This document shows positions 1 through 16,909 of a stretch of DNA of 64,000 nucleotides, piece by piece (position 1 is the first letter of the stretch; each line of letters starts with the position of its first letter). A program made the translations under genes and the position numbers. The notes under the pieces are model-generated. The model worked only from the letters and a program-made list of their open reading frames with translations. It was not told where the DNA came from and searched no databases. Source of the DNA: Halobacteriales archaeon YIM A00010 (lineage in GTDB: Archaea > Halobacteriota > Halobacteria > Halobacteriales > Haloarculaceae); NCBI GenBank assembly GCA_025041175.1, contig JAKCFJ010000003.1:682001-746000 (forward strand), given 5' to 3'.

Positions 1-3000
1 GTCCTCGCCCTCGACCACCATCACCACGAAATACCACGTCCCGGGATCGACCGCGATGGACGAACCACCGGACCCGAGACCGACGCTACCGTTGTTCCAG
101 AGTTGGGGATTGATGTTCTGGGTGTTGTTCTGGAATTCGAGGTCCCACCCGTTGGTGGGCCCCTCGGAGAGAGAACCGCCGACCTGGAAGGGGGCGCGCG
201 CCCACTGTTCGTGGTCGGTGTAGTTAATCCACGCACCCGCAGTCGCGGCCTCGCCGTTGAGCGGCAAGGGCTCGGTCGTCACGCCGTCGCCGGCCGTGGC
301 ATCCTCCGGTGGGATCGTGACACCCGTTTCTTGGTTGACGTCGAACTCGTAGGCGTTGCCGACGACGCCCTCCGCACCGGAGGTCACGTCGCCGCTGATC
401 GTGGCGTCGGTACCGGTAACCTCGTTGGTCGGCGTGGCGTCGTCGAGCGTGAAGTGCGCCTCCAGGCCCCGCTCGAGGGGGTCGCCGCTGAAGACTAAGA
501 TGGTCGTGCTCGCGCTGGTCTGTCCCTCTTCACCGTTATGGGTGAACGTCGCCTCGGCGTTCAGGGTGTAGCTCCCCTGTGAGGCGCTGTCCACGGCCGA
601 GACACCGAACTCGACAGACTGGCTCCCGCCAACCGCGATCGAGTCGATGCTCGTCCCCGGATCGGTGACCTCGACCTGATCGCTATCGGAGGTGAGCGAC
701 ACCCCCACACCGGACAGTTCGCTGTCCGATGTGTTCTCGACGGTGACGGTAGCCGTGGTCGACTCGCCTTGACCCAGCGTACCGCTGTCGAGACTGACCG
801 AGGCGACCGCTTTTGCGCCGCCGGTGATCCGGTAGATTCCCGAGTCGTCGTTGGGAGCACCGTAGCCGCTGCCCCATTCGAGCAGGTAGAACGCCCCGTT
901 TGGTCCGATTGTCATGTCCATCGGCCGGAGGAACGTCTCGTTGGGCATGAACGGGGCAATGTCGGTCACCTCCCCGTTCTCGCCGTAGCTGACGGTCCTG
1001 ATCCAGCTCGTGCTCGCGCCCCGATCCGCGATGAAGTGCCTGTTGTCGAAGTACGCCGACAGCGCGTCGTTGCTCAAGTAGTTCTCGACGTTGTACACCG
1101 AGCCACCCATCGGTGCCCCGCCCTCGAACTCGGGAAAGGGGAGCTCCTCTGGTAGGTACTCCTGGGCGTACTCGGGCGGAGAGTTGAGGAGCGCGTCCCA
1201 AGAGTAGGTGTACCAGATCGTCGCCTCCTGGGGCGTCGGCAGTTCTGTCAGTCCGTCGTTGTGCACGGACTCGTTGACCGGATTCTGTGGGTCGAACGGA
1301 CCGTTCGCGGTCTGGGTTGCGAAGTTCCAGTCCTGATACGGGAGGTTGGGTCCGATAAAGTATGGCCAGCCGTAGAAGCCGGGCTCGGCGGCCCGGTTGA
1401 ACTCGACGATCCCGGGTGGACCGCGCTCGGCGTCCCACGATCGTGAGTCGGGTCCGTAGTCGCCCCAGTAGAGGACGCCGGTCTCGTGGTCGATGCCCAT
1501 TCGGAAGGGGTTGCGACACCCCATCACATAGATTTCGGTTTTGACGAGACCGTCCTTGCGTGCCTGGGAGTACTCGTCGCCGGTGAAGAGGTTGCCGTCG
1601 GGCACCGTGTAGGAGCCGTCGTCCTGGGGGGTGATTCGGAGGATGCTGCCCCGGAGGTCGTTGGTGTTGGCCGCCGACCGCTGGGCGTCGAACAGCGGCG
1701 AACGGACGTCACGCTCGTCGATCGGCGTGAAGCCACTGGATTCGAACGGGCTGGTATCGTCACCGGTCGAGAGGTAGAGGTTCCCCTCCGGGCCGAACTC
1801 CAGGTCGCCACCGACGTGACAGCACGGGTCGGGCGCGGCCGGTATGCGGAGCATCTCGACCTCCGAGGCGGGATCGATCGTGCCCCCATTGACGGTGAAC
1901 CGCGAGAGCTTCTTGTGGGGTTCCTCGCCGGTCTGGTCGTGCGGCGCGGAGTAGTACGTGTACAGCAAGCCGTTTTGCTCGAAGGCCGGGTCGAGGACGA
2001 GTCCCTGCAAGCCGTCCTCACCAGTGATGAGCACGTCGAGTTCGAGAAGGGTCGTGATATCGCCAGTGTCGGGGTCGACCATCCTGACCCTTCCGACGCT
2101 GCCGTTCTCGCTTCCACGAGTGGTGTAGAAGACGCGGCCGTCGGACGCGACATCGATCGCCATCGGTGCGTCCAGATCGTAGGCCAATTCCGTCTTAGTG
2201 AAACTGCTCCAGATGGGGTCGGACTGGTCGCTGCCCGGGCCGACGCTTCCGATGGGAGCGTCGGGATCGACCGGCTTGACTTCGATCGAGCGAAATTGGG
2301 TGGGGTGGCTTTCGGCTTGGATGGAGATGGTACCCTCACTGAGCGGGGTGCCATCCTCGAGCTGAGGGTTGGTGTAGCTCATGACGACCCCGTCGCCCTC
2401 GACGTAGTGACGGACCTCTTGATCGCCGCGGACGACGACGGTGACGGTCACCCATTCGTCGCCTCGGTAAGTATCGGAGTTCGAGTTAGTGCAGTGTTGC
2501 GTGTGGAGGTCCCCGTCGAGGACGATGTTTGTACCTGGGGTACAGATGTTCGCGGTCGTGCGCTGGTTGGTGGCTCCCGCCTCAGTGCCGAGCAGTTGGG
2601 TCTCGAGGGAATCAGGGTAGTCCTGGTCGGTGCCCATCTCCTCGGGCGTTTGGCCGTGGAGCATCAGGCCGTTGTTTCGGAAGGCCCAGTCGGGGGCTCC
2701 GGAAGGTTGCTCGCCAACGAAGCGGTACTCGGCGCGGAGAATGTAGTGAGAGAATTCGTCGTCGTAAAAGAGATGGCCGAAAGTACCATTCCAGCCGTCG
2801 TACTGATCGTAATTGACCGTCAGCAGGCCGTCTTCGACGGTGAAGGTGTTGTTGTAGTTCTCACCGGGCTGATAGCCGGTGAATTTGGGCGTCCAGTTGT
2901 CGAGGTTCTCGCCGTTGAACAGTTGAATCCACTCGTCGTAGCCCGCGGCCCACATGAGGCCGCCCTTGAGGTGCTGGCGGAACTCCTCGTCACTGTAGCT

Positions 3001-3807
3001 GTCGGTGGTGTGGCCCATACCGGTGTAGAACGAGCGGGCACCCTCGTAGGTGTGATACCAGGCGATGGGGTGGTCGTCGGCCTGGTCGGGAGTACCATCG
3101 CCTTCGTCGTAGGTGGACTCGTCGAGGGAGGCGAGGACGTTGACGTTGCTTCGCGGGTTCTCCCTGTAACTGTACCACTCGTCGAAGCGGTCCCACGTGG
3201 CGGGAAGGTGCTCCGTAGCTGGGTGGATTCGATCCTCGATATTGACGGTTGCGGTCTGATTCTGGGGGTGGCTGTCAAAGTAGGCTCCGACGAGGTCACC
3301 GTAGAAGCTCCAGTCGTACTCGGTGTCGGCGGCGGCGTGGATGCCCATGTAGCCACCGCCGTTCTGGATGTACTGCTCGAAGGCGGCCTGTTGTTCGTCG
3401 TTCAGGACGTCCCCAGTGGTGCTGTTCCAGACCACCACGTCGTACTGTGACAGTCCGTCGGCGCTGGTGGGGAAGTTCGACCCCCCAGTCTGGGCTGGGC
3501 CGGTGATGACGTCGACGGTGATATTAGTATTGTTCTCGTTGCCGATCTCGGTGGCCAGTTCCTCGATGGTCTGGTTGGCGGTGGGGATCGAGCCGTGGGT
3601 GTACCCCTCGGTGGCCGAGAACACGAGAATAGCCGGATTCTCGCCGAGGTTCTGACCCTGGGTTTGTAGTTGTCCTATCCCGTCGGTACTGGCCGAGCCG
3701 ACGCCGACGAGGCCGACCGCGCCGAGTCCGCCGATCGTCTGGAGAACGCTTCGCCTGGAGGTGCCGATCCCTGTGTTGACTGCTTGTTTACTACTATCGT
3801 TGTTCAT
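1..3807 (-). CDS. Tat-exported ThuA / 3-keto-glycoside hydrolase-like / PQQ-type propeller / LamG protein (partial, C-terminus off window)
   Basis: An open frame of 1269 codons starts at ATG 3807 and runs off the left edge. A twin-arginine signal (SRRSVLQ, residues 17-23) is followed by a hydrophobic stretch. Domains by eye: ThuA-like glutamine-amidotransferase fold (about 58-285), DUF1080/3-keto-disaccharide hydrolase jelly roll (about 288-512, opening LFNGENLDNW), a soluble glucose/sorbosone-dehydrogenase beta-propeller (about 530-995), a CARDB/NEW3-type Ig-like domain (about 995-1105) and a LamG/concanavalin-like domain (from about 1107). Family knowledge: ThuA, DUF1080 and such propellers occur in bacterial 3-keto-sugar metabolism. 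Inference: extracytoplasmic oxidation or cleavage of a glycan. There is no CxxCH haem motif. A TATA-like box lies near 3836-3847. It runs in the same direction as the related protein at 4500-8468, separated by mobile-element debris. The exact reaction is unknown. Confidence 0.85.
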   Translation of the reverse strand, partial: MNNDSSKQAVNTGIGTSRRSVLQTIGGLGAVGLVGVGSASTDGIGQLQTQGQNLGENPAILVFSATEGYTHGSIPTANQTIEELATEIGNENNTNITVDVITGPAQTGGSNFPTSADGLSQYDVVVWNSTTGDVLNDEQQAAFEQYIQNGGGYMGIHAAADTEYDWSFYGDLVGAYFDSHPQNQTATVNIEDRIHPATEHLPATWDRFDEWYSYRENPRSNVNVLASLDESTYDEGDGTPDQADDHPIAWYHTYEGARSFYTGMGHTTDSYSDEEFRQHLKGGLMWAAGYDEWIQLFNGENLDNWTPKFTGYQPGENYNNTFTVEDGLLTVNYDQYDGWNGTFGHLFYDDEFSHYILRAEYRFVGEQPSGAPDWAFRNNGLMLHGQTPEEMGTDQDYPDSLETQLLGTEAGATNQRTTANICTPGTNIVLDGDLHTQHCTNSNSDTYRGDEWVTVTVVVRGDQEVRHYVEGDGVVMSYTNPQLEDGTPLSEGTISIQAESHPTQFRSIEVKPVDPDAPIGSVGPGSDQSDPIWSSFTKTELAYDLDAPMAIDVASDGRVFYTTRGSENGSVGRVRMVDPDTGDITTLLELDVLITGEDGLQGLVLDPAFEQNGLLYTYYSAPHDQTGEEPHKKLSRFTVNGGTIDPASEVEMLRIPAAPDPCCHVGGDLEFGPEGNLYLSTGDDTSPFESSGFTPIDERDVRSPLFDAQRSAANTNDLRGSILRITPQDDGSYTVPDGNLFTGDEYSQARKDGLVKTEIYVMGCRNPFRMGIDHETGVLYWGDYGPDSRSWDAERGPPGIVEFNRAAEPGFYGWPYFIGPNLPYQDWNFATQTANGPFDPQNPVNESVHNDGLTELPTPQEATIWYTYSWDALLNSPPEYAQEYLPEELPFPEFEGGAPMGGSVYNVENYLSNDALSAYFDNRHFIADRGASTSWIRTVSYGENGEVTDIAPFMPNETFLRPMDMTIGPNGAFYLLEWGSGYGAPNDDSGIYRITGGAKAVASVSLDSGTLGQGESTTATVTVENTSDSELSGVGVSLTSDSDQVEVTDPGTSIDSIAVGGSQSVEFGVSAVDSASQGSYTLNAEATFTHNGEEGQTSASTTILVFSGDPLERGLEAHFTLDDATPTNEVTGTDATISGDVTSGAEGVVGNAYEFDVNQETGVTIPPEDATAGDGVTTEPLPLNGEAATAGAWINYTDHEQWARAPFQVGGSLSEGPTNGWDLEFQNNTQNINPQLWNNGSVGLGSGGSSIAVDPGTWYFVVMVVEGED

Positions 3808-3941
3808 ACGATATACGTGTGAGTAACATCGAACAGGTATAAATATTACGCTCATTCCAATTAGTCGTAACTTCTACTGAGGCCAAGAACGAACGTCGCC
3901 GGTAATGGACGACGAGACGGTTTGGGTCTTCTTGCCGAGCA

Positions 3942-4499: not shown

Positions 4500-7400
4500 T
4501 CAGTCATCGCGTTGGTTACGCCAGGCGACGATGTCGTCGAGGTCCACGCGTCCGTTACCGTTGAAGTCGAAGGCGTCGGGGTTATCTTGGATTTCGGGGT
4601 CCTCGAAGTGTTCGAAGAACAGTTCGCCGTCGGCGTCGGTCACCTCTCCGTCGCCGTCGATGTCCTCGTACAACCCGTCGCCGTCGGGGTCCGTCGGGGG
4701 GGAGTCCGAGTCTCCGATCGGCTGCGGTCTCTCCCCGCCGCCGTCGCTTTCCTGAACGGAGACAGCAGCGAGCATACTCGTCGGATGAACCGAGCAGTAG
4801 TACTCAACCATCTCCTTGGTCGCGGTGAACGTGACTGATGCCGTTTTACCCTCTCCGGTCACGATATCAGTTCCAGTACCGTCGATTTCGTTGCCCTGCG
4901 AGTCGAGCATATAGATGTCGTGCGGTGCTCCGTCGGCGTTCGTCCATTCGACGGTGTATTCGCCCCCTTCTTCGAGCACGAGCGTCGGGTTCGTCTGGCT
5001 CGTGATCCCGTCGGGCGCAGTTCCTTCCCACCCATCGATAAACGCGTCGAGCTGGATTGTGGTCGACGGATCGATAACGCCTCCACTACCACCGTCATCG
5101 TCATCGTCTCCGTCAGACTCGACGTGGGTCACAACGCGCTCGTAGACCGTTTCTAGACCGCCACTAGACCCACCGATCTTCTTCAACTCTGTATCGTCGA
5201 ACCAGACGGTGCCGAACGCATTACCCCAGCCACCGAACAGGAGATTGAGCTGCAGTTCTGCGGAAGAACCACTGGTTGTGAACGTGGTCTCGAGCATCTG
5301 CCAGCCGTCGACAGGCTCGGTATAGTAGTCGGTGATGGAGTCCTGCCCGAGCGAATGAACGTTGAGTGTGACACCGTACGAGCCACCGATCTCGCCAAAT
5401 CCGTCTTCGGAACTGTGAAAGTCGTCTGACGTTCGAACCCACGCCCGGAATCTATACTCCGAGTTTGCATCTAACTGGACGAACTGTGTCCACGACGCGT
5501 CTGCTCCGTCGGAAGAGTCAATCCGAACGCTGTCTTCACCAGTTCGCGCAACATCTGCTGTGTGCGTGAACTCAGCTGTGCCACCGTACGTTATGGATTC
5601 CCAGCCAGCGGGTCCGCTGTCAGCAGGCTCCTCCATCGAAGGGTTCTGGAACAGATTCGGCAACTCGCCCGGATCTGGCTGATCGCCGGTGTCTTCGTTG
5701 GCTTCGTAGGCAGTGATGAATCCAGTGGCGTGTTGGGCACCAGCGACCGACGCGGCGTCAACCAGGACTGTGTCCTCGTAATTAGGTTCCGTACTAATCA
5801 TCTGGTAGACCGCTTCACCCGCCCCATCTGTTTCTGGAGTCTCTGCGAGTGTGAGCAGTGCCCACATTGCGACCCGCTGATCGTCGTCGTTCAGGAGGTC
5901 GTTGCTGAGGATCGCATCCCGGATTGTCGCCGTTGTTGGCACGACCCGGAGCGCAGTAATCCGAACGCCAGCCGACGAGTGAGTCAGCGCACCCATTGCA
6001 GCAGTTATCGCTGCGCTGTCACCGGAGTCTGCATCGAGCGCACCCAGCCCATCGAGCGTCCAGAGAGCGTGGATCGCGCCCGGATCGAGCCCGATCTCAT
6101 CGAGAGACTCGTTGTTGATCGACTCGATGAGGTCAGAAACCACGTCCGTCTCACCGCGCTCTACCAGCATCCGCTGCGCCGTGCGCCGCCAGAACATGTT
6201 GTCGTTGGACAGCGCATCGACCAGCGCTGACGGACTGGCACCGCTCAGATCCGTTTGCTGATAGCTGGTGTCGTCGCCGTAGGTGACGCGGAAGAGCCGA
6301 GCAGTAGCATGATCCCGCAGTTCGGTCACGTACGCGTTACCCGGACCGTTCTCGAAGCCGTCGGGCGTCGGGTTGTGTTGGTAAATGTAGTTGTACCAGT
6401 CGATGAACCATAACACGCCGTCTGGACCGACGGTCGAATAGGAGGGTGCAAACCACGCATCTGTGCCGCCGACGAAGTTATGGGCGTAGTGGCTGCTGTA
6501 GTCTGCACTGTCCTGTTCGAGATGGAAGGTGCCGAGTAAGTGACCGGTTCCATCCCCGACGAAGCCAGCGCTGTTCCAGTACTTCTTGGGGTACTCTCGT
6601 GCCGTGTAGATTGTGTGTCCAGTGGCCGCGGTGTACCCCCCGTGGCGGTCGACCTGTCGCACTCGATCGGTGACCGGCAGGAACCGATTCGTGTCCGAAG
6701 CCGCACCGAAGTCGGTTGGTGAGGTTCCGTTGATCAACTCGTAGTAGCTGTACGGGATCGGGAAATAGTTGCTGGGTCGGTCAGCGGTCGCAGCGGAGCC
6801 GAAGGCGAGACCTTCCTCAGTGAACCCGAGTCCCGCCTGATTCCCCGGCAGTTCGCCAACTATTTCGAACGCAGAGACCCCTCCGGAACTGTCATGTTTG
6901 AATCGGTAGACGGAGGAACCAAAGTCATACTGCTCGCCAGCAACGGTTCCACTGAACCCGGAGTAGCCGACCTGCCCCCAGATCCAGTTATCGACACCGT
7001 GAACGAGTTCGTTGGGACCAGCGTGCGTGTCTCCGTTGTCGAAGCCAGAGAACAGCACGGTCCGCTCATCGGCCTGGTCGTCACCGTCGGTATCCCTGAT
7101 GTGTAACATCTGGCCGCTTTCGGACGGATCATGGAGATTGGTCACGATGACACCGTTCTCGACGAGGATCATACTCGCAGGGATGGACAGATTTTCGGCG
7201 AAGACGGTGAAGTCATCGGCTTGGCCGTCACCGTCCGTGTCCTCGCAAATGACGACCTTGTCCCGATTTTCCCCCAATTCGTTGGGATAGTCGCGGGTTA
7301 CGGCCAACCAGGCCCGACCCTGTTCGTCGAATTTCATGTCGAGTATATTTCCCTTCGCGTTGTCGGGGAGCATGTTCTCGGTGACGAACGGCTGGAGATC

Positions 7401-8468
7401 GAAGTCCTCGGGCGTGATCGTGCGTTTGATCGTTTCTACAGGATTCAACGCCCGTTGCATTCGGTTCCAGTCGGTTCCCTCGCCGACCGCGTCTGGAACT
7501 GTGGTGGGTAGTAGGCTGTCCTCTGGTGGAGGATAGTATGGTATATTGGCGTCCACGAACTCCAGTTCGTCGAGGATGCGGGTGTCATCGCCGATTGTAC
7601 TCTCGTTGCCGGTTACCCAACGGAGTGCGTTCTCGATGAGTTTTTTGAAGCCGTCCTTCTCCCACGTGCCCCTGCCGTGGCCCCAAGCCGTGTAGAAGAT
7701 TCGCCCATCACCCTGCGTACGTGTCCAGGACCACGGTTCGGGATCTTCGTTTTCGCCGTAATCGGGAAAGTCACCGTGCGCGAGGACGTTGATATCATCA
7801 TTGAGGTTCGTGTGTCTGTAGGTTTCGTCCTGAGAGACGATGGGACTGAGATTGGACAGAATGGGGTGATCGGGCTGCTCGAACGTCGTACTCATCTCTC
7901 CATATCCGTGGGATTCGAACCGCCCGCCGACGAGGCTACTATACGCATCCGATTCGGGAAAGCACGCCGAGGCGCTATGGATCGGAACGAAGCCACCGCC
8001 GTTTTCGACGAACTCGACGATGGAGTCTTCCTGCTTTTGGGTCAGCCCCGACCGGTTGTCGTACATGATCCACGCGTCGTACCGGTGGAGCGTGTCCGAT
8101 TCGAGATCAGCCAACCGATCGGTGTATTGCGCTTCAATGCCCCGATTCAGCAGATACTCCGTGATCTGCACCTGCCGGGCTGGTGCGTCGTGGCTACCAC
8201 CTTCAGGACCTCCCATCATGAGGACGCTGATCGTGTCCTCGCCGGGTTCGGGAACCGCTGTCTCAACAGCATCGAGTTCGGTCACACTGTCGTCGGTGAC
8301 TTCCTGCGCGCTAAGCGTCCCTATGCTGATGAGGCTGCCTGCACCAACCCCTCCTGTCGCTTGGAGAAGCTGCCGTCTGCTCATGGTAATCGACGTTGAT
8401 TTGGTGCTATTCGTGTCTCTCACGCCACCTGTATCTTGCTCGTTTGGCATGCTATTACGATCCAACAT
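4500..8468 (-). CDS. Tat-exported ThuA / dehydrogenase-type propeller protein with cupredoxin and dockerin domains
   Basis: 1322 aa. The start at ATG 8468 is supported by a TATA-like box about 25 nt upstream; ATG 8450 is an alternative. Twin-arginine signal SRRQLLQ at 30-36. Domains by eye: ThuA-like (about 79-290), a membrane-bound-dehydrogenase-type beta-propeller as in planctomycete proteins (about 300-745), a helical HEAT-like stretch (about 750-900), a carbohydrate-binding jelly roll (about 925-1110), a cupredoxin (about 1134-1234) with the type-1 copper ligand pattern His (GAPHDIY) and Cys-His-Met (YYCSVHPTSM), and a C-terminal dockerin-like pair of calcium loops (DIDGDGEVTDADG, DFNGNGRVDLDD). 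Known relatives usually carry cytochrome c instead of a cupredoxin. Inference: an exported sugar or polyol oxidase passing electrons to its own copper centre and docked or calcium-stabilised at the surface. Substrate unknown. Confidence 0.88.
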   Translation of the reverse strand: MLDRNSMPNEQDTGGVRDTNSTKSTSITMSRRQLLQATGGVGAGSLISIGTLSAQEVTDDSVTELDAVETAVPEPGEDTISVLMMGGPEGGSHDAPARQVQITEYLLNRGIEAQYTDRLADLESDTLHRYDAWIMYDNRSGLTQKQEDSIVEFVENGGGFVPIHSASACFPESDAYSSLVGGRFESHGYGEMSTTFEQPDHPILSNLSPIVSQDETYRHTNLNDDINVLAHGDFPDYGENEDPEPWSWTRTQGDGRIFYTAWGHGRGTWEKDGFKKLIENALRWVTGNESTIGDDTRILDELEFVDANIPYYPPPEDSLLPTTVPDAVGEGTDWNRMQRALNPVETIKRTITPEDFDLQPFVTENMLPDNAKGNILDMKFDEQGRAWLAVTRDYPNELGENRDKVVICEDTDGDGQADDFTVFAENLSIPASMILVENGVIVTNLHDPSESGQMLHIRDTDGDDQADERTVLFSGFDNGDTHAGPNELVHGVDNWIWGQVGYSGFSGTVAGEQYDFGSSVYRFKHDSSGGVSAFEIVGELPGNQAGLGFTEEGLAFGSAATADRPSNYFPIPYSYYELINGTSPTDFGAASDTNRFLPVTDRVRQVDRHGGYTAATGHTIYTAREYPKKYWNSAGFVGDGTGHLLGTFHLEQDSADYSSHYAHNFVGGTDAWFAPSYSTVGPDGVLWFIDWYNYIYQHNPTPDGFENGPGNAYVTELRDHATARLFRVTYGDDTSYQQTDLSGASPSALVDALSNDNMFWRRTAQRMLVERGETDVVSDLIESINNESLDEIGLDPGAIHALWTLDGLGALDADSGDSAAITAAMGALTHSSAGVRITALRVVPTTATIRDAILSNDLLNDDDQRVAMWALLTLAETPETDGAGEAVYQMISTEPNYEDTVLVDAASVAGAQHATGFITAYEANEDTGDQPDPGELPNLFQNPSMEEPADSGPAGWESITYGGTAEFTHTADVARTGEDSVRIDSSDGADASWTQFVQLDANSEYRFRAWVRTSDDFHSSEDGFGEIGGSYGVTLNVHSLGQDSITDYYTEPVDGWQMLETTFTTSGSSAELQLNLLFGGWGNAFGTVWFDDTELKKIGGSSGGLETVYERVVTHVESDGDDDDDGGSGGVIDPSTTIQLDAFIDGWEGTAPDGITSQTNPTLVLEEGGEYTVEWTNADGAPHDIYMLDSQGNEIDGTGTDIVTGEGKTASVTFTATKEMVEYYCSVHPTSMLAAVSVQESDGGGERPQPIGDSDSPPTDPDGDGLYEDIDGDGEVTDADGELFFEHFEDPEIQDNPDAFDFNGNGRVDLDDIVAWRNQRDD

Positions 8469-8954: not shown

Positions 8955-10166
8955 ATGAGTGTCATCATCGTCGGAACGCTCGATACAAAGGGTGAGGAGA
9001 TCGGTTTCGCGCGCGACGTTCTCGAATCACAAAGCGTCGATGTCCACCTTGTCGACGTGGGGGTGATGGGTGAGCCGAAGATCGAACCAGACACGACGGC
9101 CGCGGACGTAGCTGACGCAGGGGGACGTAGCCTAGAGTCTCTCCGAGAGGTGGGCGACCGCGGCACGGCTGTTGCGGTCATGGGCGAAGGTGCGGCCGTC
9201 GTCGCAGCCCGTCTCCACGACGAGGGCGCACTCGATGGTATCCTCGGTCTGGGCGGGTCGGGGAACACCTCTATTGCGACGGCCGCGATGCGTGCTCTCC
9301 CAGTGGGTGTCCCCAAGATGATGGTTTCGACGATGGCTTCGGGTGACACGGAGCCGTACGTCGGGGCGTATGACATTACGATGATGTACTCTGTTGCCGA
9401 CATCGAAGGACTCAACCAGCTCTCACGGACCATCATCTCCAACGCGGCGCTTGCGATGGTCGGCATGGTCACGAACGACCACAGTATCGACACCGAAAAC
9501 AGACCAACGATCGGACTAACGATGTTTGGCGTCACCACACCGTGTGTCCAGACGGCGCGTGCGTGGCTCGAAGACCACGGCTACGAAACGATCGTGTTTC
9601 ACGCGACTGGCACTGGTGGGCGGGCAATGGAGCGGCTGATCGACGAGGGCGTTATCGACGGAGTCCTCGACGTCACGACCACCGAATGGGCCGACGAACT
9701 CGTCGGTGGAGACCTCTCGGCGGGGGCCGAACGACTCGATGCCGCCGCCGAATGCGGCGTGCCGCAGGTCGTCTCGACCGGCGCGCTCGACATGGTAAAC
9801 TTCGGCCGGTCGGTCCCGACCGAGTTCTCCGACCGACAGTTGCACGTCCACAACCCACAGGTGACACTCATGCGAACCACGGCCGAGGAGAACGCAGAAC
9901 TAGGCCGTATTCTTTCGGAGAAGCTCAACGCAGCGACCGGGCCGACAGCACTCGCACTGCCACTCGGCGGTGTCTCGATGCTCGGTGTCGAAGGCGAGGA
10001 CTTCCACGATCCGACGGCCGACGAGGCACTGTTCGACGCTGTTCGAGAACACACCGACGATGTGGAACTACTCGAAGTCGATACCGGGATCAACGACGAA
10101 CGATTCGCGCAGACGATCGTCGAAAAGCTCGACGCGTACATGCGCGACGCGCGACTCACCGAGTGA
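8955..10166 (+). CDS. UPF0261 / Tm-1-like ATP-binding domain protein
   Basis: 403 aa, cytosolic, no signal peptide or membrane segment. The N-terminus IIVGTLDTKGEE, the glycine-rich LGLGGSGNTSIATAAMRALP (residues about 97-116), and the block YVGAYDITMM followed by D.EGLN are hallmarks of the UPF0261/Tm-1-like family. Tomato Tm-1, which blocks tobamovirus replication, is a fusion of this domain with a TIM barrel; microbial members are separate genes of unknown enzymatic role, often in sugar-catabolic loci. Its usual partner, the TIM-barrel protein, lies at 14407-15240, on the far side of a ribose-type importer. The gene converges on the importer ATPase, 78 bp away. The family call is firm; the reaction is unknown. 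Confidence 0.92.
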   Translation: MSVIIVGTLDTKGEEIGFARDVLESQSVDVHLVDVGVMGEPKIEPDTTAADVADAGGRSLESLREVGDRGTAVAVMGEGAAVVAARLHDEGALDGILGLGGSGNTSIATAAMRALPVGVPKMMVSTMASGDTEPYVGAYDITMMYSVADIEGLNQLSRTIISNAALAMVGMVTNDHSIDTENRPTIGLTMFGVTTPCVQTARAWLEDHGYETIVFHATGTGGRAMERLIDEGVIDGVLDVTTTEWADELVGGDLSAGAERLDAAAECGVPQVVSTGALDMVNFGRSVPTEFSDRQLHVHNPQVTLMRTTAEENAELGRILSEKLNAATGPTALALPLGGVSMLGVEGEDFHDPTADEALFDAVREHTDDVELLEVDTGINDERFAQTIVEKLDAYMRDARLTE

Positions 10167-10244
10167 CTCCCCACTGCGATTCGACGCGACGGTGTTGCGT
10201 TCGGTCCGTTCGCCGGACGTAGATGAGGGGCGCAGCCGGGTACC

Positions 10245-11057
10245 TTACGTCTCCCGTTCTTTGTGCATCTGTGCCACGATGTCCATTCGATCGACGTTAC
10301 TGCTACTGTCGAGGACTTCGACGAGACCGCCGTCGCGCATGACGGCGATCCGGTCGGCGACGTCAACAACGATATCGATTTTGTGCGAGATAAGAATGCC
10401 CGCTTTCCCATCGTTCGGAATCTGTCTGACGAGATCAATGATCTTGTCGGTGCCCGTCGTCGAAACCTCCGAGGTCGGTTCGTCGAGGATGACGATCGGT
10501 GGATTCCTGATCAATGCCCGAGCGACGGCAACGGCTTGCTGTTGTCCGCCGGAAAGCTCAGAGACGGGCGACCGGGGATCGAAATCAAAACCGATCTCCT
10601 GGAGCAGTCGGTTGCTCTCCTCGACCATTCGCTCCTCATCGATTTCACGGAGGAGTGTTCCTCTGAGTCCGGATTTGCGCGGCTCGTACCCGAGAAAGAT
10701 GTTGGTTGCGACCGTGTTCGTCGGAGTAAGGTGCTGTCCTTGGTAGACGGTCGCAATACCTGCTTTCTCCGCGTCTTTCGACGAGGTGAAGTGACGCGGT
10801 TCGTCCACGCCGTTCTCGCGGACGTATATCTGTCCGGCGGTCGGGGTGAGGACCCCCGAGAGCATCTTGACGAACGTGGACTTTCCAGCACCGTTGTCGC
10901 CTGCGATGGCGAGAATTTCGCCCTTCCGGACGTCCAAACTAACGTTTCTGACAGCCTCGATCGCACCAAAGGTTTTACTGAGATCTTTCGTCCGGAGGAC
11001 GGTTCGATTCTCGGTGTCCTCGGTTGTTTCCTCGGCGGTGGATACTGTGTTACTCAT
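10245..11057 (-). CDS. ABC transporter ATP-binding protein, sugar (FrcA/RbsA half-type)
   Basis: 270 aa, a single nucleotide-binding domain. Walker A GDNGAGKST (about residues 52-60), Q-loop region TVYQGQHL, signature LSGGQQQAVAVARAL, Walker B VILDEPTSE and the switch histidine in ISHKI are all present. Ribose-type importers normally use a tandem ATPase (RbsA) of about 500 aa; this one-domain form resembles fructose-type FrcA and would act as a homodimer. It is the last gene of the permease, binding-protein, ATPase run, starting 9 bp after the binding-protein stop, so it is almost surely cotranscribed. Confidence 0.93.
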   Translation of the reverse strand: MSNTVSTAEETTEDTENRTVLRTKDLSKTFGAIEAVRNVSLDVRKGEILAIAGDNGAGKSTFVKMLSGVLTPTAGQIYVRENGVDEPRHFTSSKDAEKAGIATVYQGQHLTPTNTVATNIFLGYEPRKSGLRGTLLREIDEERMVEESNRLLQEIGFDFDPRSPVSELSGGQQQAVAVARALIRNPPIVILDEPTSEVSTTGTDKIIDLVRQIPNDGKAGILISHKIDIVVDVADRIAVMRDGGLVEVLDSSSNVDRMDIVAQMHKERET

Positions 11058-11066
11058 GTCGTTTCG

Positions 11067-12323
11067 TTAGAAGTTGTTCTTCTGCCAGTTCCGGAGTTCG
11101 CTCCACGTGTTGCGCGTCAGCGCATACTCGACGTTCTCCTGATCGACGAAGGTGACGCCGAACTCCAGGTGCTTCATCTCGATACCGCGTTCCATATACA
11201 TCCACGCGAGTGGGATGTTCAGAAACCCCTGTCCATACGGATCCTGACCCATGGTGAAGTCGACGCTTCCGTCTCTAATACTCGTCAGCACAGCCTCTAC
11301 GAGGTCGAATCCACAGATGACGAGTTCGCGGTCGATACTCCCGCTCTCGACAGCCTGTGAAGCGCCGACAGCCGTCCAAAACCCGGCACCCATGACCACG
11401 TTGATATCCTGATTGGCTGACAACCGACTCTCGACGCGGCTCTGTGCCTTCGCGAAGTCGGTCGTGACGTCGAGCGTCTCCTCGATGAGCGTCACGTCGT
11501 CTTTCGTTTGCAAGAACGACCGTGCTCCGGGGTCGACACGGCGTGTGACGGCCGGATTGCCCGGGAGACCGTTACCAATCAGGACGGTGTACTCGTCGGC
11601 ATCGAGTTTGTTCTGCATCCGGTTGTACGCCTCTGCCGCCATCGCAATTCCTCCCTGTCTGTCTCTGATGCCGACGTGTGGGATGACGATTTCCCGATCG
11701 CGGTATTTCAGGTTCTCGCGCATCCACTCGTTGTTCCAGTCGTTCTCGGCTGGCGTCGAGTGGCCGTTGATAACGGCGATGTCGTTGTCGAGCGCCCGCT
11801 GAATCGGACTGAGATACGCTTGACGGTCTAGAATCGTCGTGACCAGCACATCTCGTCCGTTCTTCAGTTCGTCAACGAGCGTGTTGATGATCTCGATCTG
11901 CTGACTCTGGCTCTGTGTCCCACTGGACGGACCGGTGACACCGCCGTTCCACCCGAACTGGTTGAGCGCGTCGTTGTAGCCAGCGATGAGCGGCGTGAAG
12001 AACGGATTCGCAACGTTCTGAATCACGAACTCGGCTCGTCGCGTCACCCCGGCACCTGGGTTCGAGTTGTCGATCGGAGCTGATGGCGGCTCGACCATTG
12101 GAATCCGCGAGTGGTCGAAGTCCGATCCTGCGCTACTGCCGCCTCCATCGTCAGCGCTACCACCGTCACCGCTTGCGTTCCCGGTGTCTTGTAAGAGACC
12201 GGAACAGCCGGCCATCGATGCTGTGGCACCGACTGCACCGAGTTGTTTGATGAGCTTTCGTCGTGATACCCCTAATTCGATCGAGAAGGTATCATCCCGA
12301 AGCGTTTGGCGATCAAATGCCAT
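11067..12323 (-). CDS. ABC sugar-binding lipoprotein, ribose/xylose type (Peripla_BP_4)
   Basis: About 418 aa from ATG 12323 (an upstream GTG at 12338 would add five residues). A twin-arginine motif SRRKLIKQLG precedes a lipobox ending MAGC, then a Ser/Gly/Asp-rich linker usual for haloarchaeal membrane-anchored receptors. The mature part has the two-lobed fold of ribose-type receptors: the early VIQNVANPFF, then DVLVTTILDRQAY, and a later lobe CGFDLVEAV with TMGQDPYGQG near the end, the site that usually contacts sugar. It lies between the permease (56 bp upstream) and the ATPase (9 bp downstream). Substrate not deducible from sequence. Confidence 0.92.
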   Translation of the reverse strand: MAFDRQTLRDDTFSIELGVSRRKLIKQLGAVGATASMAGCSGLLQDTGNASGDGGSADDGGGSSAGSDFDHSRIPMVEPPSAPIDNSNPGAGVTRRAEFVIQNVANPFFTPLIAGYNDALNQFGWNGGVTGPSSGTQSQSQQIEIINTLVDELKNGRDVLVTTILDRQAYLSPIQRALDNDIAVINGHSTPAENDWNNEWMRENLKYRDREIVIPHVGIRDRQGGIAMAAEAYNRMQNKLDADEYTVLIGNGLPGNPAVTRRVDPGARSFLQTKDDVTLIEETLDVTTDFAKAQSRVESRLSANQDINVVMGAGFWTAVGASQAVESGSIDRELVICGFDLVEAVLTSIRDGSVDFTMGQDPYGQGFLNIPLAWMYMERGIEMKHLEFGVTFVDQENVEYALTRNTWSELRNWQKNNF

Positions 12324-12394
12324 GATAGTGAACGACACTCATTCTAACTTAACTCTTTCCCTCCTGTTTCATTTTGTGCGAGATGAGAGGAGGA

Positions 12395-14101
12395 TTACGT
12401 TAGATTGCTGCCGAAGTACAGCGACACGATAATCCAGACGCTGTACGTGGTAGCAACAGTAATCGCTGCGTTACGCGAGGATACGTCGTGAAGCGAACCG
12501 ACGCTCAGATACAGCGTTACAGCCACGAGTAGGCCGACGACGGCGAGGCTCCCAAACACGAGGACTGTCAGGAACGCGAACCCTTGTAACGTGATTGGGA
12601 CGAACAGGAGTAGCGCCGGTGCCATGCCGTATCCGACAGCAGCGATCGTACTGTCGACGTCTCCAGCTCCACCGAGGTGCGTTGCAGTGAAGTGAACCGT
12701 CAGAACCGCGAGAAGCGTCAGTAGCGCCATCACGAGGTATATCTGGAGGACGATCATTGTTACCCCCGCGAGGTTGGCCTCGGCAATGTAGAGCAGGAAT
12801 CGATCGGCGAAGGATGGAGAGAGCGCTGCTGACAGCATCACGATCAGTGCGACCAACAGCCCGATAACGACGATCGACGTTGCGATGAACGCGATAGACT
12901 GACTCGGTCCCTTTTCGTTTGCTTCGTTTTGGAAGAACGAACGTGGACCAGAGATGATTCGACCGAGAGGACGCGTGTACCAGTTTCGCAGGAGCTGAAG
13001 CGAGAACTCGGAGAACACGGTGTCGAGACCGATAGCGGCGATAATGAAAAGTCCCGTGATTAGCCGGGAGAACTTCGGACCGAAGCCACCGAGCGTGAGG
13101 ATGTTCTGTGCGAAACCAAGGATGAGTGCACCCATCAGTACGCCCGTCATTGAGCCGTCACCGCCCGTGAGCTTTGTTCCGCCCAGAACCACCGCCGCAA
13201 TGACGATCAGTTCTGTTCCGGAACCGGTACCCGGCGACACACTCCCGATGTACGCGAGCTCCGACAGTCCCGCGAACGCGGTGACCGCAGCAACGATGGC
13301 GAAACAAGCGATTTTGATTCGTTCCGGATCCAGCCCCGTCGTCTCGGCAGCGTTGATGTTGTCACCCGTCGCACGAACGTGGCGACCGAACGTCGTCCTG
13401 AACAGGATGTGATGGAATACGAAGAGGAGGACCATAATCCAGACGATCTGCGCGGGAAAGCTAGCGAATCGCTGCGTCTCGGAGTGAACGAACGGAACGG
13501 CGTAGTCGAGTACCGGGATCGTGAAGAGACCCGCGTCAATGAACGGCACTGTAACCGTGAACGGGAGGGAGTAGGTACCGCCGATAGCCTTCATCACTGG
13601 ACCAGCCTCCGCCACGGATATCGTAACAGCTTCTCCGCCCAGTAAGAGGAAGTGCGCACCGCGAAGGAGCGTTAGTGTTCCGATGGTGACGATCAGCGAC
13701 GGCAGACCGAACTTCGTCACGAGTAGTCCTTGTGTGACGCCGTATATCGCCCCCAGCGTAATCGTCAGTACGATCGTAAAGATTGGATCGAAGCCGCTCG
13801 AAATCATTACTGCCCCGAGACCGGCCGTGATACCGATCAACGAGCCGACTGACAGGTCAAACTCCGCGGTGACCATCAGGAGTGACATACTGTAGCCGAC
13901 CATCGCGATGATGGCTGCGCTACGGAGAACGCGTACGAGATTGTTGAGTGTGAGGAACGACGATGCGTTAACCAAAACACCCAGCAGGACTATTGCGATC
14001 AATCCGACCATGACGCTCGATTCGCGCCTGTCCAGGATCGACGTCCTGATGGATTTTATTCGGCTCTGAACTGAACCCGGTGTAGTTGTCAATGCGAACA
14101 C
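12395..14101 (-). CDS. ABC sugar permease (RbsC type) fused to a Yip1-like membrane domain
   Basis: 568 aa starting with GTG 14101; a TATA box 27 nt upstream supports this start. Residues about 30-365 are a standard RbsC/BPD_transp_2 permease with the conserved FDLSVGS, the coupling region GRHVRATGDNINAAETTG and AAVVLGGTKLTGGDGS. Family members are usually about 330 aa. From about residue 375 a second membrane module begins (GPRSFFQN, then four or five hydrophobic segments including FTATHLGGAGD and VGYGMAPALL), which resembles archaeal Yip1-domain proteins. The two halves are in one uninterrupted frame. The gene leads the importer operon. The role of the extra domain is unknown; a coupling or stability function is only a guess. 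Confidence 0.88.
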   Translation of the reverse strand: MFALTTTPGSVQSRIKSIRTSILDRRESSVMVGLIAIVLLGVLVNASSFLTLNNLVRVLRSAAIIAMVGYSMSLLMVTAEFDLSVGSLIGITAGLGAVMISSGFDPIFTIVLTITLGAIYGVTQGLLVTKFGLPSLIVTIGTLTLLRGAHFLLLGGEAVTISVAEAGPVMKAIGGTYSLPFTVTVPFIDAGLFTIPVLDYAVPFVHSETQRFASFPAQIVWIMVLLFVFHHILFRTTFGRHVRATGDNINAAETTGLDPERIKIACFAIVAAVTAFAGLSELAYIGSVSPGTGSGTELIVIAAVVLGGTKLTGGDGSMTGVLMGALILGFAQNILTLGGFGPKFSRLITGLFIIAAIGLDTVFSEFSLQLLRNWYTRPLGRIISGPRSFFQNEANEKGPSQSIAFIATSIVVIGLLVALIVMLSAALSPSFADRFLLYIAEANLAGVTMIVLQIYLVMALLTLLAVLTVHFTATHLGGAGDVDSTIAAVGYGMAPALLLFVPITLQGFAFLTVLVFGSLAVVGLLVAVTLYLSVGSLHDVSSRNAAITVATTYSVWIIVSLYFGSNLT

Positions 14102-14123
14102 CTATCCATGTATTCTGGTGAAG

Positions 14124-14131
14124 ATATAAAT
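14124..14131 (-). promoter_or_regulatory. TATA box of the sugar importer operon
   Basis: The minus strand reads TATTTATATC, centred 27 nt before GTG 14101. It predicts a leaderless transcript beginning at the GTG codon. The box lies about 130 bp from MITE-like copy B. Confidence 0.55.
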
Positions 14132-14254
14132 ATTTTACCGCTGTACCGCATAATTGTCCCGATCCGGGATTCAGCCGGGATAGCGGAGCTGACCCACGAG
14201 GCGGAATCAAGGTCTGTTGCGATTGGACGCGTTCGTGATTTCGGTCGGCGATTC

Positions 14255-14351
14255 GTACTGTCGGACCTGCGGACGGAGTGTGACGGACGAGCCAGCTACT
14301 GTCTAGTGGTTCACCAGCAGCCGATACGCGATCACCCCTGTCCGACAGTAT
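14255..14351. mobile_element. MITE-like element copy B, 97 bp
   Basis: Its ends read GTACTGTCGGAC at 14255-14266 and GTCCGACAGTAT at 14340-14351, an inverted repeat. The interior, read on the minus strand, shares TATCGGCTGCTGGTGAACC and a GACAGTAGCTGG block with copies A and C. It is inserted in the 305-bp spacer between the TIM-barrel gene and the importer operon, apart from which the spacer holds only the importer promoter. Confidence 0.7.
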
Positions 14352-14406
14352 CACTCTCCAGAGCGATTCCGACAGACTGACCGGGAGAACAGCTCCCAGT
14401 CGCCGT

Positions 14407-15240
14407 TCAGAAATCGATGTTCTTGAACTCGCGGGTCTGGGTTTCGATCGCTTCCTCGGTTGCGAGTCGTTCGATGCTTGACGCTCCAAAGAAACCAACG
14501 ACGCCGTCAGTGTTGTTTAGTACGTACTCAGCGTCGTCCGGCCAGGCGATAGGACCGCCGTGACAGATCACGTGGATGTCGTCGTTGACGGCCTTCACGG
14601 CGTCGTGGTGGGCCTGAACGCGCTCGGCCGCGGCATCGAGATCAAGCGCGGTTTCAGCACCGATATCACCCGACGTTGTGAGGCCCATATGCGAAACGAT
14701 CACGTCGGCCCCCGCCTCGGCCATCGCCTCCGCCTGTGCTTCGGTGAAGACGTACGGACACGTGAGCAGGCCCTGGTCGCTCGCTTCGCGTATCATCTCC
14801 ACTTCCTTGTCGTAGCCCATACCGGTCTCTTCGAGGTTCTTGCGGTAGGTGCTGTCCTCGTCAATGAGTCCAACAGTCGGGAAGTTCTGGACGCCCGAGA
14901 AGCCACGACGCCGGAGATCTTCGAGGAACACGTTCATGTTCCGAAACGGATCTGTGCCACAAACACCAGCGAGTACTGGGGTGTTTTCAACGACCGGAAT
15001 TACTTCGTGACCCATCTCGACAACGATCTCGTTGGCGTCGCCGTACGGCAGTAGCCCCGCTAGCGAGCCACGGCCGTTCATTCGATACTGTCCGGAGTTG
15101 TAGATGATCAGGAGGTCGACTCCGCCACGCTCGGCGAATTTCGCCGAGATTCCAGTTCCGGCACCGGCACCGACGATAGGATCACCCGATTCAATCGTTG
15201 ATTCTAATCGACCGAGAGACTCCATACGTGAGTACTTCAT
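14407..15240 (-). CDS. Phosphoenolpyruvate-hydrolase-family TIM-barrel protein (Tm-1 C-terminal-domain homologue)
   Basis: 277 aa from ATG 15240 (upstream TTG at 15252 rejected). The N-terminus RLESTIESGDPIVGAGAGTG, the AKFAERGGVDLLIIYNSGQY block, GVCGTDPFR, FSGVQNFPTVGLID and VSHMGLTTSGDIG are strongly conserved features of the IPR009215-type TIM barrel found alone in microbes and as the C-terminal half of plant Tm-1. It lies downstream of the cupin gene (about 100 bp) and upstream of MITE copy B. Together with the UPF0261 protein at 8955-10166 it reconstitutes both Tm-1 domains. Enzymatic activity in archaea is unproven; the 'phosphoenolpyruvate hydrolase' name is a family label. Confidence 0.9.
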   Translation of the reverse strand: MKYSRMESLGRLESTIESGDPIVGAGAGTGISAKFAERGGVDLLIIYNSGQYRMNGRGSLAGLLPYGDANEIVVEMGHEVIPVVENTPVLAGVCGTDPFRNMNVFLEDLRRRGFSGVQNFPTVGLIDEDSTYRKNLEETGMGYDKEVEMIREASDQGLLTCPYVFTEAQAEAMAEAGADVIVSHMGLTTSGDIGAETALDLDAAAERVQAHHDAVKAVNDDIHVICHGGPIAWPDDAEYVLNNTDGVVGFFGASSIERLATEEAIETQTREFKNIDF

Positions 15241-15340
15241 CCGAGTAAACAAGGGCCCTCACTACCCTTCAATATTTCGATAGAATCGTGTGCTGTATCC
15301 AATCCGTACGACGGACCACCGGCCCGATAACCGGTCTCAC

Positions 15341-15751
15341 TCAGGCGTCCGGGAACTCATCCGGCGGAAAAACCGTCGCTTCAGCGAGGTCACGTAGTTC
15401 AGCCTCCGGTCCCGGCGGCCCGTAGATTGCTAGAAATCGAAGGGGTTCCCAAGAACAGTTCATTGTGCTGTGCTCGACGCCAGCCGGGATGTACACCATC
15501 TCACCCGGTCCGACCGACCGTTCTTCGTCCGCGATGGTTTGTTCACCCTCGCCACTGAGGATGTAAAGGATTTCTTCGCTGTCCGGGTGAGTGTGGCGCT
15601 CGTGGCCCTTTCCGGGATCGAGTACGACGACGCCAGCACTGAACGACTCCGATCCAGTAACTTCGGGGGTGTTCATCCACTTCAGTGTCCCCCAGTCCAG
15701 TTGAATCGTCTCCACATCTCTCGATCGGACGAATCGCTTTTCGGCTACCAT
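15341..15751 (-). CDS. Cupin-domain protein
   Basis: About 136 aa from ATG 15751; a GTG at 15799 would add 16 residues whose composition (Phe/Cys-rich) does not fit the rest. A single cupin barrel is visible: motif 1 ERHTHPDSEEILYILSGEGE supplies two histidines and glutamate, and motif 2 GEMVYIPAGVEHSTMN supplies the third histidine, so a divalent metal site is complete. Small cupins of this kind act as sugar isomerases/epimerases, dioxygenases or sensors. Position at the head of the Tm-1/importer cluster suggests a role on the imported compound. Confidence 0.88.
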   Translation of the reverse strand: MVAEKRFVRSRDVETIQLDWGTLKWMNTPEVTGSESFSAGVVVLDPGKGHERHTHPDSEEILYILSGEGEQTIADEERSVGPGEMVYIPAGVEHSTMNCSWEPLRFLAIYGPPGPEAELRDLAEATVFPPDEFPDA

Positions 15752-16909
15752 AGCGTACGTCAACAAACAGCAATCGAAAGTAAATGTTTTGGTGCTCACG
15801 GTTCGTTCGATTGGGTTCGCCGAACTGAATACTGAATCTCGGCTGCCATACCGGCTGTATCTGATTTTCTCATGCGATTAGCACGCGCGAAAGCTCACTC
15901 TCCCCGATTGAAGCATGAGGCCGGGCTGACGACGGTTCATAGAACAAACATTAATATAATCTAGATATTTGATGAGTGTTCGATCTATAGAAAATCGATG
16001 AATGAATTGTATGAATATACGCGGTTTACGGACGAGTGTTCTCGTATTGTGAATCGCCTTTATACAGAGACGCCAACACGATTCATGGGTCGACATTCTC
16101 ATATTGTAAATGATCTCGATACACAAACAGGAGTGCGCGTCTACCGTCATACAGTTGCTCTCGGTCACGCATACCTGCCTGAAAGACGGCATACGTTCCT
16201 CCTGGCGACCGAAAATACGGTCACGAATCGGCGGAGTTAGTGTCGATTACCACGACTGACGACAAGATCCTCGGTGCGGTCAGCGTCTCCGGCCCGTCAA
16301 GTTGGGGGGAGCGATGGACGAACGACATCCCAGAAAAAATATTCAAATGCAGGTACATGATTGAACGTAATATCGAGTAGTGCTGGTCTATAACGAACCA
16401 AACGAATCTCAAAATGAGAACAGCCGTCATATTTTTGCCCTAATAATCACTGTGTACATGAATCCGTTTCCAGATGTGAGTCTACCGGCCAATCAGGCTA
16501 TAGTAGTTCGAATAGAGCTCCCCATTACACACGCACTACTGTGAACAGAAGTGGATATCTACACCGTCAAGACTGGGATGGACGGTGTTCGTCGTTCCGA
16601 TGGTCGTCCAACGTCTCTAGTGACGGGCGGCAACGACGAGCGTTATTGATGATCTTCGTAAACGCATCTGAAATACACGAGCGTGCCCTCTGAATGGTTG
16701 GGTATAGATACACAATATTCTCCCGTTTCGTGGGTTACCCGTAACCACACCTGGTCAGCACGACGGAGAGCGCAAAGTGAGTGACATTATAAGTAGAAGA
16801 ATCGATTTAATCGAAATGACGTTTACAAATCGAAAATAGAACGGTATTGACGTGTGGATCACGGCACGTTCGGCACGTTCGAGTTACTACTCGACACCTC
16901 TGTGAGGTT
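15752..16909. other. Non-coding accessory spacer with degenerate tandem repeat
   Basis: About 1.2 kb without a convincing gene. It is AT-rich around 15945-16030, then holds three diverged units of about 57-60 bp (15971-16145). Short frames exist on both strands but none has a recognisable family. The rest shows no structure I can support. Confidence 0.5.
15971..16145. repeat. Degenerate tandem repeat, three units of about 57-60 bp
   Basis: Units begin near 15971 (GATGAGTGTTC), 16031 (GACGAGTGTTCTCGTATTG) and 16088. The core TTCTCGTATTGTGAAT at 16039 recurs as TTCTCATATTGTAAAT at 16096, spaced exactly 57 bp (19 codons). On the minus strand the units translate to related blocks such as CIEIIYNMR and CIKAIHNTR. 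Divergence is high, so this is an old repeat. Confidence 0.45.

Follow-up and report, generated by a model that had tools for sequence, protein, structure and literature searches.

A haloarchaeal locus encoding exported, cupredoxin-fused propeller proteins, a laccase-like oxidase and a putative cohesin scaffold for a proposed docked sugar-oxidizing complex

The locus lies in a salt-loving archaeon (Halobacteriales archaeon YIM A00010, most likely a Halocatena), within a window of 64,000 nucleotides (contig JAKCFJ010000003.1, positions 682,001 to 746,000) and immediately to its left. Its central gene (4500..8468, minus strand) is a real open reading frame of 1322 aa that carries, in order, a twin-arginine signal (SRRQLLQATGG; residues 29-46, 8331..8384), a ThuA domain (residues 82-285, 7614..8225; Pfam E 3.5e-39), a DUF7133 β-propeller (residues 343-730, 6279..7442; E 2.7e-85), a HEAT-like helical repeat (residues about 746-924, 5697..6233), a CBM4/16/22-like carbohydrate-binding module (residues 938-1075, 5244..5657), a cupredoxin (residues 1136-1245, 4734..5063) and a type I dockerin (residues 1256-1322, 4503..4703), all on the minus strand. 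Copper-bind (1172-1239, E 2.7e-5) and Dockerin_1 (1267-1313, E 3.1e-5; 24.5 bits against 22.9) exceed their curated cut-offs, whereas CBM_4_9, HEAT_2 and TAT_signal score below theirs, although the twin-arginine motif is plain in the sequence. The propeller also passes the N-terminal TIGR02604 model (142.4 against 122.2 bits), the model of PVC-type heme-binding CxxCH proteins; however, no CxxCH motif occurs in the 1322-aa translation, and a cupredoxin takes that place.

The neighboring gene on the left (1..3855, minus strand) runs off the end of the window, and its whole length (G000:C3:681176-685855, minus, where G000 is the genome and C3 the contig under study) encodes a 1559-aa Tat-exported protein of ThuA, DUF1080 (3-keto-disaccharide hydrolase), GSDH (sGDH-type), CARDB/NPCBM-like, LamG, cupredoxin (His-Cys-His-Met) and dockerin domains, the last scoring 23.8 bits with Dockerin_1. 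Further left, outside the window, are a secreted protein of 405 aa with two divergent cohesins and a dockerin of its own (G000:C3:679561-680778, plus), about 6 kb from the central gene, and a CotA-type multicopper oxidase (MCO) of 611 aa that also ends in a dockerin (G000:C3:677248-679083, plus); as whole proteins, these two score 22.0 and 15.3 bits with Dockerin_1, below its cut-off. The MCO is a CotA homologue (E 3.5e-98) with all four copper motifs (HFH, HDH, HPIHLH and HCHMLEHEDNKM) for the T1 and trinuclear sites. On the other side, 8955..15799 encodes UPF0261, a sugar-type ABC transporter (ATPase, permease and binding protein), a PEP-hydrolase-like protein and a cupin, which are regarded as adjacent catabolic context and not as part of the complex.

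In the AlphaFold model of residues 310-1322, the propeller matches sGDH (Foldseek E 3.8e-8 to 1qbi) and the PQQ sugar dehydrogenase 3a9g (VIA Z 25.2), the carbohydrate-binding module matches CBM4/16/22, and the copper domain matches a nitrite-reductase cupredoxin. The neighboring GSDH aligns with sGDH through the catalytic-His and RNP motifs; for DUF7133, in contrast, DTHAG (His482) aligns near the GSDH catalytic His, but the profile comparison reaches only 63% probability and is too weak to place PQQ-binding residues. Moreover, the same fold includes the non-enzymatic HHIP, and a search with the PqqC model TIGR02111 returned no match in 7 genomes, although its control was equally silent. The cupredoxin presents its His, Cys, His and Met ligands in APHD ... 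YYCSVHPTSM, with the spacing C-x2-H-x3-M; these ligands are conserved in nearly all haloarchaeal relatives in the C-terminal copy, which keeps them where the N-terminal copy has lost them.

Both calcium-loop F-hand repeats of the dockerin, DIDGDGEVTDAD and DFNGNGRVDLDD, are conserved across 18 aligned sequences, the present one and 17 others, which, together with the exclusive co-location with cohesin described below, led to the rejection of a chance calcium-loop match. The candidate cohesin partner was less readily recognized, because PF00963 finds no match in this genome, and a Pfam search alone would have indicated that no cohesin exists; this reading was abandoned after the neighboring open reading frames were inspected. 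A profile of the scaffold's domain compared with archaeal PF00963 cohesins gave 96-97% probability over 125 columns, a full-length alignment, as against no more than 5.5% for five unrelated domain profiles, and the best PDB profile hit is a Ruminococcus scaffoldin C cohesin (E 0.0089). Among relatives, PF00963 is the commonest Pfam match (6 of 43 at E <= 0.1, best E 4e-5). The fold evidence comes from a homologue 26-32% identical, the Haladaptatus protein of locus L038, in whose single-sequence model the top 28 Foldseek hits are cohesins, with Z 9.3 to a C. thermocellum cohesin. As the Pfam cut-off is a detection limit rather than a biological definition, the domains are termed remote cohesins. 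Scans of viral contigs with cohesin queries returned no relatives, and a Haloferax 792-aa repeat protein next to that organism's MCO was considered as a cohesin and dropped, being Ig/Fn3-like by Pfam.

With family-specific profiles, the genome contains exactly four dockerins and two cohesin domains of this family, all located at C3:678.9-686.7 kb; the dockerins are those of the central protein, the ThuA-DUF1080-GSDH-cupredoxin protein, the MCO and the scaffold. The ensemble recurs in a genome of another haloarchaeal family (G209), where GSDH-cupredoxin-dockerin, a protein of three cohesins and a dockerin, MCO-dockerin and more occupy one locus, and partly in Haladaptatus L038, where DUF7133, GSDH-cupredoxin-dockerin and a cohesin protein occur together. 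Without dockerins, cupredoxin-fused propellers still sit beside this laccase subfamily in Haloferax, Halocatena and others. An MCO lies within about 11 kb of DUF7133 in 7 of 9 genomes; the genomes G265 and G272 lack this adjacency, the DUF7133 of G272 being on a 26.7-kb contig. Of the 11 MCOs that are >=62% identical, 10 lie near cupredoxin-fused propellers, compared with 2 of 89 others (Fisher p 4e-11, without correction for phylogeny). In another genome, G264, the MCO itself carries an N-terminal cupredoxin with intact ligands.

The initial annotation had described a Tat-exported chain of ThuA, propeller, carbohydrate-binding module, cupredoxin with complete ligands and dockerin-like calcium pair, and this observation is confirmed, far beyond chance. 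Its interpretation is supported only in part. It had proposed a dehydrogenase-like propeller, a blue-copper domain taking the electrons where planctomycete relatives use fused cytochrome c, and assembly with a cohesin partner; two of these three guesses are strengthened. The propeller is closest in fold to PQQ sugar dehydrogenases, and a candidate cohesin partner was found next door. Planctomycete relatives mostly end in cytochrome c while the haloarchaeal ones end in a cupredoxin, so a blue-copper acceptor is plausible; however, one Phycisphaera protein also has the cupredoxin version, so the swap is not unique to haloarchaea. The claim that such dockerin assembly is rare in haloarchaea is not right, since neither dockerins nor cohesins are rare there. 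The dockerin-bearing laccase, which is the key to the likely mechanism, lay outside the window and could not have been seen in the initial annotation.

Most likely, and with moderate confidence, the gene encodes one subunit of an extracellular redox complex assembled by cohesins and dockerins. In this view, the two Tat-exported propeller proteins would bind glycosides through their CBM/LamG modules and oxidize the sugar, probably at C3, to a 3-keto glycoside that the DUF1080 domain would cleave; electrons would pass from the propeller cofactor to the covalently attached C-terminal cupredoxin and from there to the T1 copper of the CotA-type MCO, which would reduce O2 to water. The two-cohesin scaffold would hold dehydrogenases and oxidase together through their similar dockerins, while its own, more different dockerin may let scaffolds link to each other, in a stoichiometry that two cohesins for three docked enzymes plus one scaffold dockerin do not fix; no cell anchor was identified. 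The analysis itself establishes the domain content, the predicted fold of propeller and cohesin (the latter on the homologue), the conservation of the copper ligands, the closed set of four dockerins and two cohesins in one locus, and the recurrence of the ensemble and of the dehydrogenase-laccase pairing, whereas dehydrogenase activity and its cofactor, the substrate, the 3-keto chemistry, copper loading, cohesin binding and its specificity, and the direction of electron flow are inferred.

Alternatively, the proteins may be docked while the electrons bypass the laccase, the cupredoxin handing them to halocyanin or the membrane respiratory chain and the MCO being a copper-tolerance or phenol oxidase that shares the scaffold. 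Haloarchaea use halocyanins as electron carriers, the Copper-bind domains of relatives score with halocyanin/amicyanin/plastocyanin models, and G265 has cupredoxin-fused DUF7133 and GSDH with no MCO within reach; however, the dockerin on the MCO itself, the subfamily-specific co-location and the cupredoxin fused to the MCO of G264 speak against this reading, which is considered unlikely. Slightly less likely still is that the propeller is not an oxidoreductase but a substrate-binding or lyase/hydrolase domain, with the cupredoxin as a structural or copper-scavenging module. DUF7133 has no assigned function, and the missing CxxCH motif, the example of HHIP and, for what a search with a silent control is worth, the absence of a detected PQQ synthesis gene are compatible with it; at the same time, relatives alternate cytochrome c and cupredoxin at the same end, which points to a one-electron acceptor role, and the sister protein in the locus is a recognizable GSDH with the same cupredoxin.

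The least likely alternative is that the dockerin is only a calcium-stabilized tail or substrate-binding module and that no complex forms. This would follow the published reading of haloarchaeal type I dockerins as substrate binding (PMC10963439, PMC13260240) and the silence of PF00963 in this genome, but it is opposed by the divergent two-cohesin protein within 6 kb, by the occurrence of dockerin and cohesin of this family together and nowhere else in the genome, by the all-cohesin structural hits of the homologue, and by PhoX-type dockerin proteins elsewhere that also sit beside surface cohesin proteins.

The boldest possibility, which remains tentative and somewhat less likely than not, is that of a natural electrosome, a natural version of an electron-passing enzyme assembly that has so far only been engineered, in which a cohesin scaffold gathers blue-copper-tagged, quinoprotein-like sugar dehydrogenases and a laccase outside the cell, so that sugar oxidation is wired directly through cupredoxins to O2 without the membrane respiratory chain; it would also supply haloarchaeal dockerins with cohesin partners that earlier work did not recognize. 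Cohesin-dockerin assemblies are known almost only as hydrolytic cellulosomes or as unexplained archaeal modules, and a docked oxidative complex with its own electron relay and terminal oxidase would be a new use of the principle. The question of what the many haloarchaeal dockerins bind becomes testable. The papers that read them as substrate-binding domains mention no cohesin; the divergent cohesin family found here occurs in a third of sampled Halobacteria genomes. Moreover, the finding suggests that the large family of DUF7133 proteins feeds electrons to an attached one-electron carrier, heme or copper. Searches of the open-access literature for haloarchaeal cohesin-dockerin redox systems, or for cupredoxin-laccase-sugar dehydrogenase systems, gave nothing equivalent.

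Compared with known systems, the locus is not a cellulosome, because the three docked enzymes carry no glycoside hydrolase family and are oxidoreductase-like, although the scaffold has two cohesins. The non-cellulosomal archaeal systems of Archaeoglobus and the scaffoldin-like proteins of ANME (PMC9012536) likewise combine archaeal cohesins and type I dockerins, with a scaffold of several cohesins plus a dockerin and no link to cellulose; here, however, the docked enzymes are cupredoxin-fused, propeller dehydrogenase-like proteins and a laccase, and the cohesins are divergent haloarchaeal ones that PF00963 misses in this genome. Planctomycete ThuA-DUF7133 proteins (TIGR02604, PVC-type) share ThuA, propeller and HEAT in the same order, with 36-48% identity over the propeller and HEAT part, but mostly end in cytochrome c, one Phycisphaera protein ending in Copper-bind, and no dockerin was seen in them. 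Soluble PQQ glucose dehydrogenase, aldose sugar dehydrogenase and AA12 pyranose dehydrogenase share the propeller fold (Z 21-25) at only 10-16% identity, without a demonstrated PQQ site here; fungal pyranose dehydrogenase also carries a fused electron-transfer domain, which is a cytochrome b rather than blue copper. CotA laccase shares the fold family and all four copper motifs with the MCO, which here carries a dockerin and sits next to cupredoxin-fused propellers. Finally, the engineered electrosome (Szczupak et al. 2017, PMC5535219) reportedly used a cohesin scaffold to hold dockerin-fused dehydrogenases, and a dockerin-fused copper oxidase; that system is artificial and displayed on yeast, with anode and cathode in separate compartments and, as far as its abstract tells, no cupredoxin relays, and the complex proposed here would be its natural counterpart.

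The open reading frame at 4500-8468 on the minus strand is uninterrupted over 1322 codons, and Pfam assigns to its product ThuA (residues 82-285), DUF7133 (343-730), Copper-bind (1172-1239, over its cut-off) and Dockerin_1 (1267-1313, over its cut-off), while CBM_4_9, HEAT and the Tat signal remain sub-threshold. In addition, NCBIfam assigns TIGR02604 over its cut-off. A predicted structure of residues 310-1322 (mean pLDDT 68, with the propeller core and HEAT better) returned soluble glucose dehydrogenase (sGDH) as its top Foldseek hits (E 3.8e-8), together with CBM4/16/22 and a nitrite-reductase cupredoxin domain. Similarly, structural alignment ranked the PQQ sugar dehydrogenase 3a9g (Z 25.2), AA12 (24.0) and sGDH (22.6) above HHIP (21.7) and SMP-30-type propellers. 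As a result, the observation made in the initial annotation holds, because every part that it named is present in the chain.

On contig C3 of the assembly, where the window occupies 682001-746000, the next gene to the left runs off the window and encodes a 1559-aa Tat protein composed of ThuA, DUF1080 (3-keto-disaccharide hydrolase), GSDH, a CARDB/NPCBM-like part, LamG, cupredoxin and dockerin. Beyond it, on the other strand, lie a 405-aa secreted protein with two repeated beta domains and a dockerin (C3:679561-680778) and a 611-aa Tat-exported multicopper oxidase (MCO) with a dockerin (C3:677248-679083); the oxidase is CotA-like (E 3.5e-98) and retains all four copper motifs. The gene order is MCO and scaffold in one direction, followed by the GSDH gene and the 1322-codon gene in the opposite direction.

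Although PF00963 detects no cohesin in this genome, it exceeds its cut-off in 109 of 295 Halobacteriota genomes, and the repeated domains of the 405-aa protein have relatives in 97 of 292 Halobacteria genomes. A profile built from 62 of these relatives matches accepted archaeal cohesins with 97.1% probability over 125 columns, and a repeat gave 96.2%, while five unrelated domain profiles gave at most 5.5%. Among 43 members, PF00963 is the most frequent Pfam match (6, best E 4e-5), and against PDB sequences the best hit is a scaffoldin C cohesin (E 0.0089). A single-sequence AlphaFold model of the Haladaptatus homologue returns cohesins as its top 28 Foldseek hits, with Z 9.3 to a C. thermocellum cohesin and 8.8 to that of Archaeoglobus; however, the domains of the 405-aa protein are 32% and 26% identical to this homologue, so that the predicted fold is carried over rather than modelled directly. 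In addition, adjacent gene pairs comprising a PhoX-type protein ending in cohesin-dockerin and a short secreted protein with one cohesin and a C-terminal membrane anchor are widespread, with about 25 loci from Halobacteria genomes (L012-L037; e.g., L035:1297-3423 and 548-1300, L012:1222-3456), which looks like a general haloarchaeal cohesin-dockerin surface system that PF00963 mostly misses.

With a dockerin profile derived from the locus, the genome contains exactly four dockerins, and with the cohesin profile exactly two cohesin domains, all of which fall at C3:678.9-686.7 kb. The dockerin of the 1322-residue protein is 91% identical to that of the GSDH neighbour and 62% identical to that of the MCO, whereas the scaffold dockerin differs more (56%) and is nearest to the scaffold dockerin of G209, a genome from another family (60%). 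The two cohesin types are 23% identical to each other, but each is 54-65% identical to its counterpart in G209. Two conserved cohesin types and two conserved dockerin types suggest two specificities, for example, enzyme docking and scaffold-scaffold linking, although this remains a hypothesis.

The ensemble recurs beyond this genome. In G209, a single locus holds GSDH-cupredoxin-dockerin, a three-cohesin-dockerin protein, GSDH-dockerin, a secreted double sugar-isomerase-type TIM barrel with dockerin, MCO-dockerin, and ThuA-GSDH with an inserted cupredoxin and a dockerin; the last of these, a 974-aa GSDH-type protein at L112:14594-17518 (G209:C1:169593-172517), carries the cupredoxin between two halves of the propeller sequence and the dockerin at the end. 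Haladaptatus sp. DYF46 combines DUF7133, two GSDH-cupredoxin-dockerin proteins and a cohesin protein in one locus (L038), and a second locus (L040) contains the complete architecture of the 1322-residue protein.

Dockerin-free versions are commoner. All full-length DUF7133 proteins in the haloarchaeal loci that were read carry cupredoxins, the Haloferax gibbonsii gene (L048:9674-14856) being split into two overlapping frames after the propeller by a frame break or sequencing error, and an MCO lies within about 11 kb in 7 of 9 genomes. Of the 11 MCOs at least 62% identical to the one studied here, 10 sit near cupredoxin-fused propellers, against 2 of 89 more distant ones (Fisher p 4e-11, not corrected for phylogeny). 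In the same genome, a second, dockerin-free pair lies on contig C2, with the MCO 66 bp from CUP-ThuA-GSDH-CUP, and a remnant of an MCO gene with three stops (C4:40601-41044) lies right next to a CUP-ThuA-GSDH gene (ORF 11027-13726 of locus L143), representing a decayed third copy of the pair. The second DUF7133 protein of the genome (L007:9067-12678; C3:49066-52677) bears a cupredoxin at both ends, HEAT and DUF6807, but no dockerin. Likewise, H. pallidirubidus has an MCO beside two CUP-GSDH-CUP genes, and in another genome, G264, the MCO itself bears an N-terminal cupredoxin with intact ligands (L138:13641-15728; G264:C2:173640-175727).

Across the fused cupredoxins, the C-terminal copy keeps His-Cys-His-Met nearly everywhere, while the N-terminal copy has lost ligands in Haloferax and in Halocatena YIM 93972; selection therefore holds on the C-terminal site, the loop of which is C-x2-H-x3-M. 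Four planctomycete relatives that were examined end in cytochrome c, and one Phycisphaera protein ends in Copper-bind, so that heme and copper alternate at the same end of the same propeller, which supports a one-electron acceptor role.

In the most likely mechanism, the propeller would oxidise a CBM-bound glycoside, and the electrons would go to the tethered cupredoxin, then to the T1 copper of the laccase and to O2, with the cohesin scaffold bringing the partners together. The associated families, namely ThuA, DUF1080 (annotated as 3-keto-disaccharide hydrolase), xylose-isomerase-like TIM barrels in G209, and Gfo/Idh and isomerases near the H. pallidirubidus locus, point to 3-keto chemistry, although this is an inference from families. 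The window also encodes a GH115 alpha-glucuronidase (24376-27366) next to two aldehyde dehydrogenases and an SBP5-type ABC transporter, which likely serve xylan side-chain utilisation, and the glucuronidase, the dehydrogenases and the sugar or oligopeptide-type transporters of the window together fit a plant-polysaccharide locus. The analysis itself establishes the anatomy, the folds (that of the cohesins through a homologue), the conservation and the association of these genes, whereas the substrate, docking, copper loading, electron flow and the cofactor are inferred, the PQQ residues of DUF7133 having eluded placement and the search on PQQ synthesis having had a silent control. At the same time, the interpretation in the initial annotation, that a blue-copper domain could take the electrons and that the dockerin hints at assembly with a cohesin partner, is supported in part, by the carrier swap and by the remote cohesins next door.

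Archaeal cohesins and dockerins are already known, and ANME possess scaffoldin-like proteins, although an earlier survey cited in the same work saw no archaeal multi-cohesin scaffoldins (PMC9012536). For planctomycetes, a peptidase "planctosome" has been proposed (PMC6461901), while haloarchaeal dockerins in mannanases and a GAG lyase have been read as substrate-binding (PMC10963439, PMC13260240). No natural redox version was found in the open-access literature that was searched; the nearest functional likeness is the engineered electrosome, in which dockerin-fused dehydrogenases and copper oxidase are placed on cohesin scaffolds (PMC5535219). The present locus thus belongs with the known cohesin-dockerin systems in having a true dockerin and a remote but credible cohesin, and departs from them in that its enzymes are, by their predicted families, oxidative instead of hydrolytic.
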